Shown: piece after piece, positions 8,087 to 13,086 of the stretch
How positions within the stretch are numbered: position 1 is the first letter of the stretch
How the letters are laid out: each line of letters opens with the position of its first letter
Source of the DNA: an uncultured Panacagrimonas sp.
Lineage (GTDB): Bacteria > Pseudomonadota > Gammaproteobacteria > Nevskiales > Nevskiaceae
NCBI GenBank assembly: GCA_946481265.1
Contig: CAMLNE010000084.1
Location: forward strand, 1 to 13,086
Reading direction: 5' to 3'
Length of the DNA: 13,086 nt
Position numbers and translations under genes: made by a program
The notes under the pieces: generated by a model
What the model saw: the letters and a program-made list of their open reading frames with translations, nothing else
Told to the model about the DNA's origin: nothing
The model's database searches: none

Positions 8087-8101
8087 CGGATCCGAGCCTC
8101 G

Positions 8102-8107
8102 ATCATA
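8102..8107 (-). promoter_or_regulatory. -10 element for the SUMF1-like gene
   Basis: TATGAT on the minus strand matches the -10 consensus at 5 of 6 positions. Transcription would start near 8095 and give a short leader carrying the strong Shine-Dalgarno. No clear -35 is visible. Confidence 0.4.
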
Positions 8108-8208
8108 AGCGTGGGAAGAGGCGACCATGCCAGGTGGTTCAGGGTTCCGTTCCCCCGCCTTCCACGGGCATGCCGCCGACGCCGCCATGCCGGCCGCTCC
8201 CGCCGGGC

Positions 8209-8220
8209 GGACGGCCGTCC
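8209..8220. repeat. 12-base palindrome between divergent genes
   Basis: GGACGGCCGTCC is a perfect palindrome, extended imperfectly by GGC/CGCC on its flanks. It lies about 34 bases upstream of the sugE -10 element and could be an operator or simply GC-rich sequence. Confidence 0.35.
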
Positions 8221-8250
8221 CGCCGCGATGGACGCGTGATCGGAGAGGCA

Positions 8251-8262
8251 GGTTAAGATCGC
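8251..8262 (+). promoter_or_regulatory. -10-like promoter element for sugE
   Basis: GGTTAAGATCGC holds TAAGAT (8254-8259). The predicted transcript start, near 8266, falls at the foot of the first riboswitch hairpin, so the aptamer would sit at the extreme 5' end of the mRNA. Confidence 0.5.
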
Positions 8263-8266
8263 CGGC

Positions 8267-8317
8267 GCGCAGGGACGACCCGGCGCCATCGGCACGCCTA
8301 CTCCCGGGGACGGCCCC
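8267..8317 (+). ncRNA. Guanidine-II (mini-ykkC) riboswitch
   Basis: Two hairpins with the class-defining ACGR loops. Hairpin 1 (8267-8286) is GCGC, an A-G mismatch, then GGG-ACGA-CCC and GCGC. Hairpin 2 (8306-8317) is GGGG-ACGG-CCCC. The linker is 19 bases, within the range known for this class. In guanidine-II RNAs each ACGR loop binds one guanidinium and the two loops dock, exposing the ribosome-binding site. The coding start follows 23 bases after hairpin 2, behind a purine-rich GAGCGAG (8324-8330). The downstream gene is SugE/Gdx, the usual guanidinium exporter under this control. Loop sequences, spacing, promoter position and gene identity agree. The anti-Shine-Dalgarno pairing is not obvious to me; only a short CUC/GAG match between linker and 3' region is visible. 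Confidence 0.88.
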
Positions 8318-8340
8318 ATTCCCGAGCGAGATTCGCCGTC

Positions 8341-8658
8341 ATGTCGAGCTGGATCGTGCTGGCCTTCGCCGGCCTGCTGGAAGTGGTTTTTGCCGTCGCC
8401 CTCAAACAGAGCCGCGGCTTTTCCCATCTGCCGATGACCTTGCTGGCGGCACTTGCCATGATCGGCAGCCTCGGCCTGCTCGCGCTGGCGATGCGCGAGA
8501 TCCCGATCAGCGCGGCCTACGTGGTCTGGACCGGAATCGGTGCCGTCGGCACCGTCCTCGTCGGCATCCTGCTGTTCGGCGAGGCGGCCTCCACCCTGCG
8601 CCTGGCCAGCATCGCGCTGATCCTGGCCGGGATGATCGGTCTGAAGTTCGGCTCCTGA
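8341..8658 (+). CDS. sugE: SMR-family guanidinium exporter SugE/Gdx
   Basis: 105 residues with four transmembrane helices, the normal small-multidrug-resistance size. The sequence tracks E. coli SugE: SWIVLAFAGLLEVVFAVALK with essential Glu14, then AYVVWTGIGAVGTVLVGILLFGE (residues 60-82) and RLASIALILAGMIGLK at the end. Gdx-type members export guanidinium in exchange for protons as antiparallel dimers. The riboswitch-like leader supports the guanidinium-exporter subtype rather than an EmrE-like multidrug pump. The ATG at 8341 fits the family N-terminus; the ribosome-binding site is weak, as expected if translation is controlled. It is convergent with speD. Confidence 0.95.
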   Translation: MSSWIVLAFAGLLEVVFAVALKQSRGFSHLPMTLLAALAMIGSLGLLALAMREIPISAAYVVWTGIGAVGTVLVGILLFGEAASTLRLASIALILAGMIGLKFGS

Positions 8659-8686
8659 GGCCGGGCGCCCGGCGCCGCCAGGAGCC
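8650..8686. terminator. Long hairpin between convergent sugE and speD
   Basis: GGCTCCTG (8650-8657, overlapping the sugE stop) pairs perfectly with CAGGAGCC (8679-8686). Between them lies a 14-base palindrome GCCGGGCGCCCGGC (8660-8673) that can form an inner hairpin. There is no U-tract. It is probably a shared transcript-end or mRNA-protecting structure for both genes. Confidence 0.5.
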
Positions 8687-8698
8687 CCGCTGCGGGCA

Positions 8699-9496
8699 TC
8701 AGCGCTGGATGTTGCGGCCGTAGAAAACTTCCATGATCTCGTGGTTGACGCGATCGCGGATGCGCTTGGCTTCGCGCGGCGGCAGCTCGGAGACACCTTC
8801 GCCGAACAGGTAGGTGTCCAGGTCCAGTTCCTTGAGCCGCATCTTGGTGTGGAAGATGCTCTCCTGGTAGACGTTGACGTCCACCATGTCGTACCGGTCG
8901 CGCAGGCTGCGCGAGATGAAGTTCTGGATCGAGTCGATCTGGTGATCGATGAAGTGCTTCATGCCGCGCACGTTGCGGGTGAAGCCGCGCACGCGGTAGT
9001 CCATCACCACGATGTCGCTCTCGAAGCTCTTGATCAGGAAGTTCAGCGCCTTGAGCGGCGAGATCTTTCCGCAGGTCGACACGTCGATGTCGGCGCGGAA
9101 GGTGCTGATGCCCGAGTCCGGATGCGTCTCCGGGTACGTGTGCACCGTGATGTGGCTCTTGTCCAGGTGCGTGACCACGGACTTCTTCTTGGCCGTGGTC
9201 GGCGTCGGCAGGCCGTCGTGGTGTCCTTCCGAGATCAGCATCGTCACGCTCGCGCCCTGCGGATCGTAGTCCTGGCGCGCGACGTTGAGGATGTTGGCGC
9301 CGATGATGTCCGCCACCTCGGTCAGGATCGCGGTCAGGCGCTCGGCGTTGTAGGCCTCGTCGATGTACTCGATGTACTCGCGCTTGTGCTCCGTGGTGCG
9401 CGCGTAGCAGATGTCGTAGATGTTGAACGACAGCGACTTCGTGAGGTTGTTGAATCCGAGCAGCTTGAGCTTCGGATTACTGGTGGGTTTGGCCAA
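8699..9496 (-). CDS. speD: S-adenosylmethionine decarboxylase proenzyme (SpeD)
   Basis: 265 residues, matching the E. coli-type SpeD length. It decarboxylates SAM to supply aminopropyl groups for spermidine synthesis. Highly conserved blocks are [22 protein letters not shown] (near 11-32), [11 protein letters not shown] (75-85), [18 protein letters not shown] (110-127), [20 protein letters not shown] (133-152) and [10 protein letters not shown] (166-175). Ser114 in LDKSH is the self-cleavage residue that becomes the pyruvoyl group, and Cys142 is the conserved catalytic cysteine. The start is a TTG at 9494-9496 with GGGAGA 5 bases upstream; there is no nearby in-frame ATG and the family N-terminus begins here. 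It sits downstream of the osmC-family gene with a candidate promoter in between. Confidence 0.97.
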
Positions 9497-12724: not shown

Positions 12725-13086
12725 TCATTCCAGATTCAGCTTCTTCACCTTGTAGCGCAGCTGCCGGAACGTCAGGCCCAGCAGGGCCGCAGCCTTGGTC
12801 TTGTTGTAGCGGGTCTTTTCCAGTGCGTCCTGGATCGCCCGGCGTTCGAGTTCCTCGACGCGATCGTCGAGACCGGCGGTGGAGACGGTCCCCGCCGGGT
12901 GCGTTGCCGCATTCGCCGGGCGCGTCGAGGGCTCGGCGCCGTGGTCCTCGAAGCCGGTCATCGCCACGCGCAGCTGCAGATCCTCGGCCGTGATCGCGGC
13001 GCCGTCGGACAGGGTCAGGGCACGCTCGAGGATGTTCTCCAATTCGCGGACGTTGCCCGGGAATTCGTAGCTGAGCAGCAGCCGCT
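12725..13086 (-). CDS. 3' part of a sigma-54 activator, probably PilR
   Basis: Open to the right edge, so the N-terminal receiver and most of the AAA+ domain lie outside the window. The visible part starts with the end of the sigma-54 interaction domain, LLLSYEFPGNVRELENILER, with the family PGNVREL signature. A variable linker follows, then a Fis-type helix-turn-helix: DRVEELERRAIQDALEKT, then NKTKAAALLGLTFRQLRYKVKKLNLE. The GLTFR-x-LRYK-x-KKL ending resembles PilR, the activator of type IV pilin genes, more than NtrC, but the fragment alone does not settle this. Its TGA overlaps an ATG in frame with the DUF885 gene downstream. Confidence 0.9.
   Translation of the reverse strand, partial: RLLLSYEFPGNVRELENILERALTLSDGAAITAEDLQLRVAMTGFEDHGAEPSTRPANAATHPAGTVSTAGLDDRVEELERRAIQDALEKTRYNKTKAAALLGLTFRQLRYKVKKLNLE

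Follow-up and report, generated by a model that had tools for sequence, protein, structure and literature searches.

Guanidine-II riboswitches carry two hairpins with ACGR loops and G+C-rich stems, and in the available text of PMC7544219 the linker between them is given as 7-40 nt. The class is described as controlling translation by an anti-Shine-Dalgarno sequence in the linker (PMC9094411), and the off state of the P. aeruginosa switch as a P0 helix with the anti-Shine-Dalgarno sequence (PMC9561414). Huang et al. proposed a stem loop over P2 and the ribosome site that cannot form together with the folded switch (PMC5486947). In E. coli, constitutive gdx expression is reported for a strain whose 20-bp deletion takes in P2, and its authors put this down to the loss of the P2 loop (PMC13064478; all five sources as far as their text was available).

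The sugE leader and its gene product

The window, a stretch of 13,086 nt from an uncultured Panacagrimonas sp., was analysed for a hairpin pair in front of sugE (Table 1). The earlier note had placed two ACGR hairpins 19 bases apart and sugE 23 bases past the second, and both distances were exact on direct reading: the spacer runs from 8318 to 8340 and the ATG starts at 8341. The part of P1 named there was the inner GGG-ACGA-CCC (8272-8281); the full stem has a single A.G mismatch at 8271/8282. When the whole window was searched with cmscan against 4227 families, RF01068 (Guanidine-II) was the sole match at the gathering threshold (8267-8318, forward strand, E 0.0022), with 32.5 bits exceeding the cut-off of 32 bits by 0.5 bit only. 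Scanned alone, the region 8100-8700 gave RF01068 at E 1e-4 and no other match up to E 10. The covariance model thus bore out the earlier assignment to the guanidine-II (mini-ykkC) class.

Table 1 Features of the sugE leader and gene, in window positions
Feature	Position	Strand	Description
-10-like hexamer TAAGAT	8254..8259	+	without recognisable -35
P1 hairpin, guanidine-II aptamer	8267..8286	+	GCGC-A-GGG-[ACGA]-CCC-G-GCGC, loop ACGA 8275-8278
P1-P2 linker	8287..8305	+	19 nt
P2 hairpin	8306..8317	+	GGGG-ACGG-CCCC, loop ACGG 8310-8313
GACGGC, P2 loop and closing pair	8309..8314	+	5' strand of the proposed off helix, exact complement of 8335-8340
TCCC	8320..8323	+	competes for GGGG 8306-8309, alternative P2
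Weak Shine-Dalgarno-like GAGCGAGA	8324..8331	+	best 16S-tail match, -5.0 kcal/mol, spacing 9
GCCGTC	8335..8340	+	3' strand of the proposed off helix, six bases directly before ATG
sugE/gdx	8341..8658	+	105-aa SMR transporter; Glu14, Phe17, Ser43, Tyr60, Trp63

The locus is like RF01068 in its two G+C-rich ACGR hairpins, its linker, which lies within the published range, and the SMR exporter (SugE) gene directly downstream, 23 nt past P2. It differs in its low score, in the P1 mismatch and in a proposed helix between the P2 loop and positions -6 to -1 instead of a linker anti-Shine-Dalgarno. The E. coli gdx (sugE) leader likewise has ACGA in P1 and ACGG in P2, but has a GGAG Shine-Dalgarno sequence where the window has only GAG-type matches (PMC13064478, available text). 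The guanidine-II RNA of Gloeobacter violaceus is alike in the stem loop proposed over P2 and the ribosome site; a pairing of the P2 loop with a start-adjacent hexamer, as proposed for the window, is not named in the available part of PMC5486947.

The nearest loci with DNA were L001/L061/L185 from a Panacagrimonas sp. bin (72% protein identity to the window SugE) and L184 (75-76%). L001/L061 and L184 both have the two hairpins at the same place and Phe17. Of 12 related loci scanned, four have RF01068 at or over the gathering cut-off upstream of sugE (L001 40.3, L002 39.5, L014 40.0 and L017 44.2 bits); the family scored 34.2 bits before sugE in the L184 genome and was found at E <= 0.01 in 37 of 85 genomes of the relatives' order, 34 of them over the cut-off. 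The RF01068 hit, the SMR/Gdx gene that follows and the occurrence of the hairpin pair in relatives support the claim of a guanidine-II riboswitch controlling sugE. Judged by these sequence features, the RNA before sugE is almost certainly a guanidine-II riboswitch and an ordinary further member of the known class. The leader as a whole showed no unusual folding stability (z -0.19).

Further from the gene, an 18-kb region around L184 (L214) contains, about 6 kb from sugE, a methyltransferase-like and a sulfatase-modifying-factor-like ORF with 74% and 68% identity to neighbours of sugE in the window; in 12 kb of L001 no window gene other than sugE recurs. A mobile origin was rejected, since 69 plasmid records match part of the query and none reaches 80% coverage. 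Near the window end, at 12725-13042, an ORF resembles only the C-terminal part of sigma-54 activators (NifA/FlbD-like, Fis-type helix).

The earlier note had also taken a -10-like element as marking the transcript start. The hexamer is present, ending 15 nt upstream of the P1 loop, and TAGAAT stands at the same distance in L061. No sigma-70 promoter-like pair was found in 8100-8800, however, so that a transcript start at P1 is still a presumption. Counted without a chance control, a -10-like hexamer (at least 4 of 6 bases) stands 13-19 nt before the P1 loop in 8 of 20 sugE leaders (the window, L061, L064, L007, L008, L009, L011 and L063), and aptamer-first transcripts therefore look common. 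L001 and L184 have TTGACC 16 nt before the -10 TAGAAT, as read by eye, whereas the window has no TTGACC. The compact layout, thought to stand out, is not special, since the 8 leaders are similar and L001/L061 and L184, the two nearest relatives with DNA, share the hairpin pair and its distance to the -10. What we take to be the 16S tail sequence was used for the Shine-Dalgarno match in Table 1. Upstream of the presumed promoter, at 8209-8220, lies a perfect 12-bp palindrome, GGACGGCCGTCC, which also folds as an ACGG hairpin; it might serve as an operator or have arisen by chance in DNA this rich in G+C.

The sugE product matched Pfam PF00893 with 86.9 bits. Its best solved matches were 6wk5 (82.8 bits, E about 2e-22), which we take to be Gdx-Clo, and the near-identical chain 8vxu; EmrE gave 33.2 bits. 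With the NCBIfam SugE equivalog NF008512, the top of 22 families listed, it scored 119.9 bits at a cut-off of 126. The Glu/Ser/Tyr/Trp site (E13, S42, Y59 and W62 in Gdx-Clo) is kept in the window protein and is intact in 120 of 120 proteins listed, the window's own (P0001) included, of 2023 found. At the Trp16 of Gdx-Clo stands the window's Phe17; among the 120 listed proteins the first 29, again counting the window's own, have Phe at position 17 and the other 91 have Trp. Trp16 is conserved among Gdx proteins and W16G reduces but does not abolish exchange, according to the available text of PMC7695847, so Phe for Trp is a real departure. The closest solved relative and the site residues support a Gdx-type guanidinium exporter as the probable product. 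Phe in place of the Gdx Trp16 also occurs in L203, L206, L208-L213, L155 and L023.

Pairing partners of P2

The free folding of the window leader was predicted at nine transcript ends. P1 had a pairing probability of 0.93-0.97 and P2, without ligand, one of 0.02-0.14. Similarly, among 20 leaders P1 reached at least 0.88 in 16 and P2 stayed at or below 0.14 in 16. The alternative P2, GGGG 8306-8309 with UCCC 8320-8323, had a mean pair probability of 0.08-0.87 depending on the transcript end and was strongest (0.80-0.87) at ends 8341, 8346 and 8380. The helix of GACGGC with GCCGUC reached 0.78 at +20 (end 8360) and 0.66 at +30 (end 8370) and was low elsewhere, with 0.05 at +6, 0.16 at +12 and 0.02 at +45; for ends 8341 and 8380-8440 it did not exceed 0.02.

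When P1 and P2 were both forced, the ensemble lay 1.3-2.5 kcal/mol over the free one, energies that are within model error; a gap of this predicted size could be closed by the ligand. Forcing opened 8335-8343 only at ends 8360 (unpaired 0.36 to 0.56) and 8370 (0.38 to 0.56), left it nearly unchanged at six other ends reaching it, and did not expose the weak Shine-Dalgarno (unpaired 0.49 to 0.38, leader folded to +36). The folding models alone support the loop-to-start helix only in part. A general complementarity of P2 to the downstream region was rejected, 37 canonical leaders being no better than their shuffles (mean z 0.18); the window gave z 1.18, with 0.20 of the shuffles equally good, and 30 leaders with a variant P1, many of them close kin, a mean z of 1.35.

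The hexamer was compared across the loci retrieved, whose 134 distinct SugE-like starts comprised 43 with a canonical pair, 33 with a variant P1, 3 with a single hairpin, placed in neither group, and 55 with none. Rows were excluded when the SugE match started after residue 6, when no start codon was in reach, when too little upstream DNA was present or when the last 70 bases were identical. An exact complement of the leader's own P2 hexamer (GACGRC) between P2 and the start was found in 11 of the 76 paired leaders. All 11 end at -1 and thus occupy -6 to -1; the remaining positions of the 1335 examined gave none, and the complement of the other loop type was absent from all 76. Both hexamers were absent from the 55 SugE starts without hairpins and from a background of 1099 starts of mechanical ORFs with 200 codons or more.

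These 11 leaders represent about six lineages: the window with L184, L071, L020, L150, L136 and a group of five (L169, L170, L172, L173 and L175). Within the window clade the pairs are ACGG/GCCGTC in the window, ACGG/CCCGTC in L185, which covers the locus of L061, and ACGA/GTCGTC in L184; relative to the window, loop and start have changed together in L184, and five of six pairs are kept in L185. Since the three canonical leaders among the 11 with ACGG in P2 (window, L150 and L136) have ACGA in P1, the start-side bases follow P2 and not P1. Folding predicted the helix well for L184 and L071, only at certain lengths for the window and L150, weakly for L020 (at most 0.28), and not for L136 (at most 0.03) or the group of five (at most 0.08). 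The 65 of 76 leaders without the complement mean that other off states must exist.

A looser motif, CGTC at -4 to -1, occurred in 14 of the 76 leaders (10 of 50 clusters), in 3 of 55 SugE starts lacking the hairpin pair (p 0.024) and at 8 of 988 ORF starts, many of them mechanical. The P2 loop base and base -5 were G/C in 6 clusters, A/T in 3 and A/C in 1 (p 0.033), with clusters cut at 60% identity over 60 bases and the window, L061 and L184, which are one clade, counting as three. On the sequence comparison, these results suggest that the ligand-binding loop of P2 is also able to pair immediately upstream of the start codon. This helix is absent from the available text of PMC7544219, PMC9094411, PMC12335538, PMC7695847, PMC9561414, PMC5486947, PMC13064478, PMC9788692, PMC2864571 and PMC7266159, and none of the literature matches listed has it by title or abstract start, which does not prove its absence.

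Variant leaders and other guanidine-II-like sites

Some leaders before sugE have a 6-nt P1 loop CCACGN in place of ACGR, with a canonical P2 (L016, L020, L022, L028, L029, L041, L050 and L054, and further L156-L165, L167-L170, L172-L183, L186, L188, L189 and L215-L218). Within the family to which L028's genome belongs, 27 of 199 genomes have the pattern (backward control, 10 of 199); in the class it was found in 2 of 385, L028's genome included. Of the 27 loci, 23 are distinct leaders immediately upstream of a SugE-like ORF; L163, L166, L171 and L176 make up the remainder. With a model built from eight variant leaders, matches at E <= 0.001 were obtained in 3 of 240 genomes of the class; in L001's order, 4 of the 6 genomes tried matched. 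RF01068 gave no match at E <= 1 in six variant loci. When ten related genomes were searched singly, the sole weak RF01068 hit with the variant pattern was L103 (the L016 leader), at 23.4 bits below the gathering cut-off of 32.

The loop was CCACGT in 26 of 33 leaders, CCACGA in 5 and CCACGC in 2, CCACG being fixed by the search pattern. The CCACGN leaders are possibly an undescribed guanidine-II variant; no account of them appears among the literature matches listed. In 11 of 30 variant leaders, which are close kin (L041, L050, L157, L158, L159, L162, L164, L165, L168, L181 and L182), the 3' side of P2, CGGCCC, is exactly complementary to GGGCCG overlapping a GGAGGG Shine-Dalgarno; this pairing may be a second kind of P2-based off helix.

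Guanidine-II hits also stand before ORFs other than sugE (L060, L075, L076, L078-L080, L082, L084-L092, L094-L096 and others). These are long ORFs starting MF.KVLIANRGAIA, which presumably are biotin carboxylase-like and resemble such enzymes, and ORFs of about 275-285 aa sharing an N-terminal motif.

Alternative readings and proposed switching

The off state could instead be of the P. aeruginosa kind, with the flanks and the linker forming a P0 helix and an anti-Shine-Dalgarno covering the Shine-Dalgarno sequence. That arrangement is backed by mutation in P. aeruginosa (PMC9561414, available text), and the window linker contains CUC at 8301-8303 and has GAG at 8324-8326 near the start. In two of 20 leaders (L064 and L068) the linker pairs better than 90% of its shuffles, but over all 20 the linker as anti-Shine-Dalgarno showed no excess of downstream pairing (mean z -0.08). 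The window linker gave -9.2 kcal/mol against a shuffled mean of -10.8, and its Shine-Dalgarno is weak, which makes a P0 helix here unlikely. The earlier statement that an anti-Shine-Dalgarno partner is not evident therefore holds for a classical linker partner and fails for the P2 loop, which complements -6 to -1. Alternatively, the off state may consist of the alternative P2 only, and the loop-to-start match would be a bystander. The high predicted probability of GGGG/UCCC at three ends speaks for this, yet the alternative P2 alone leaves the start codon uncovered, and the hexamer recurs at one exact position and changes along with the loop; we consider this reading doubtful.

A decayed, non-switching copy of the riboswitch would explain the A.G mismatch, the narrow pass of the Rfam cut-off and the lack of the -35 that L184 and L001 show. 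It is very improbable, because both loops, the flanking G-C pairs, the loop-to-start match and the ORF are all undamaged and the binding-site residues are kept save Trp16. The pump might also export another substrate, as a Qac-like or shifted SMR protein, with the RNA sensing guanidinium or a relative for some other reason. Besides the Phe and the SugE score under its cut-off, this could be read from the distribution of Phe-type starts, which are commoner without a hairpin pair (15 of 55) than with a canonical (4 of 43) or variant pair (0 of 33); of the 19 such starts among the 134, 15 lack a pair. Gdx-Clo is by far the closest solved SMR protein, however, and the window-clade members found with DNA (window, L061 and L184) have both Phe and the riboswitch in 3 of 3 cases, so that another substrate is very unlikely.

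The preferred reading, which is very probable, is that the guanidine-II riboswitch turns on translation of a guanidinium exporter, with a predicted off state made by the P2 strand. By analogy with published work on the class, the two docked loops would bind guanidinium and translation would rise. Without ligand, P1 would be formed and P2 would not be the favoured fold, its strand pairing elsewhere: GGGG with UCCC or, blocking initiation more directly, GACGGC with GCCGUC against the start codon. Because docking with ligand depends on the P2 loop, the bound state and the off helix would be mutually exclusive, and the start region would be released. The E. coli P2-deletion phenotype fits an off state that needs P2 (PMC13064478, available text). 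The P2-loop partner in the off state and the Phe at the Trp16 position are what goes beyond the earlier note, and we lean slightly towards the view that the loop-to-start helix truly belongs to the off state.

For leaders without an obvious anti-Shine-Dalgarno, the six pre-start bases matching the P2 loop offer a concrete off state, and ACGG/GCCGTC and ACGA/GTCGTC form a natural compensatory pair. Evenly balanced is the wider proposal of a distinct guanidine-II platform, in which the P2 loop itself sequesters by the GACGRC complement at -6 to -1, recurring in Alpha- and Gammaproteobacteria (about six lineages, with classes taken from the named loci used as centres), tracking the A/G choice of the loop and, in the window, controlling a Gdx of the Phe16 subclade. 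If it is true, the ligand site and the off helix would be the same bases. The Phe16 Gdx clade, whose three members with DNA are all under guanidine-II control, lends itself to the question of what role Trp16 has.
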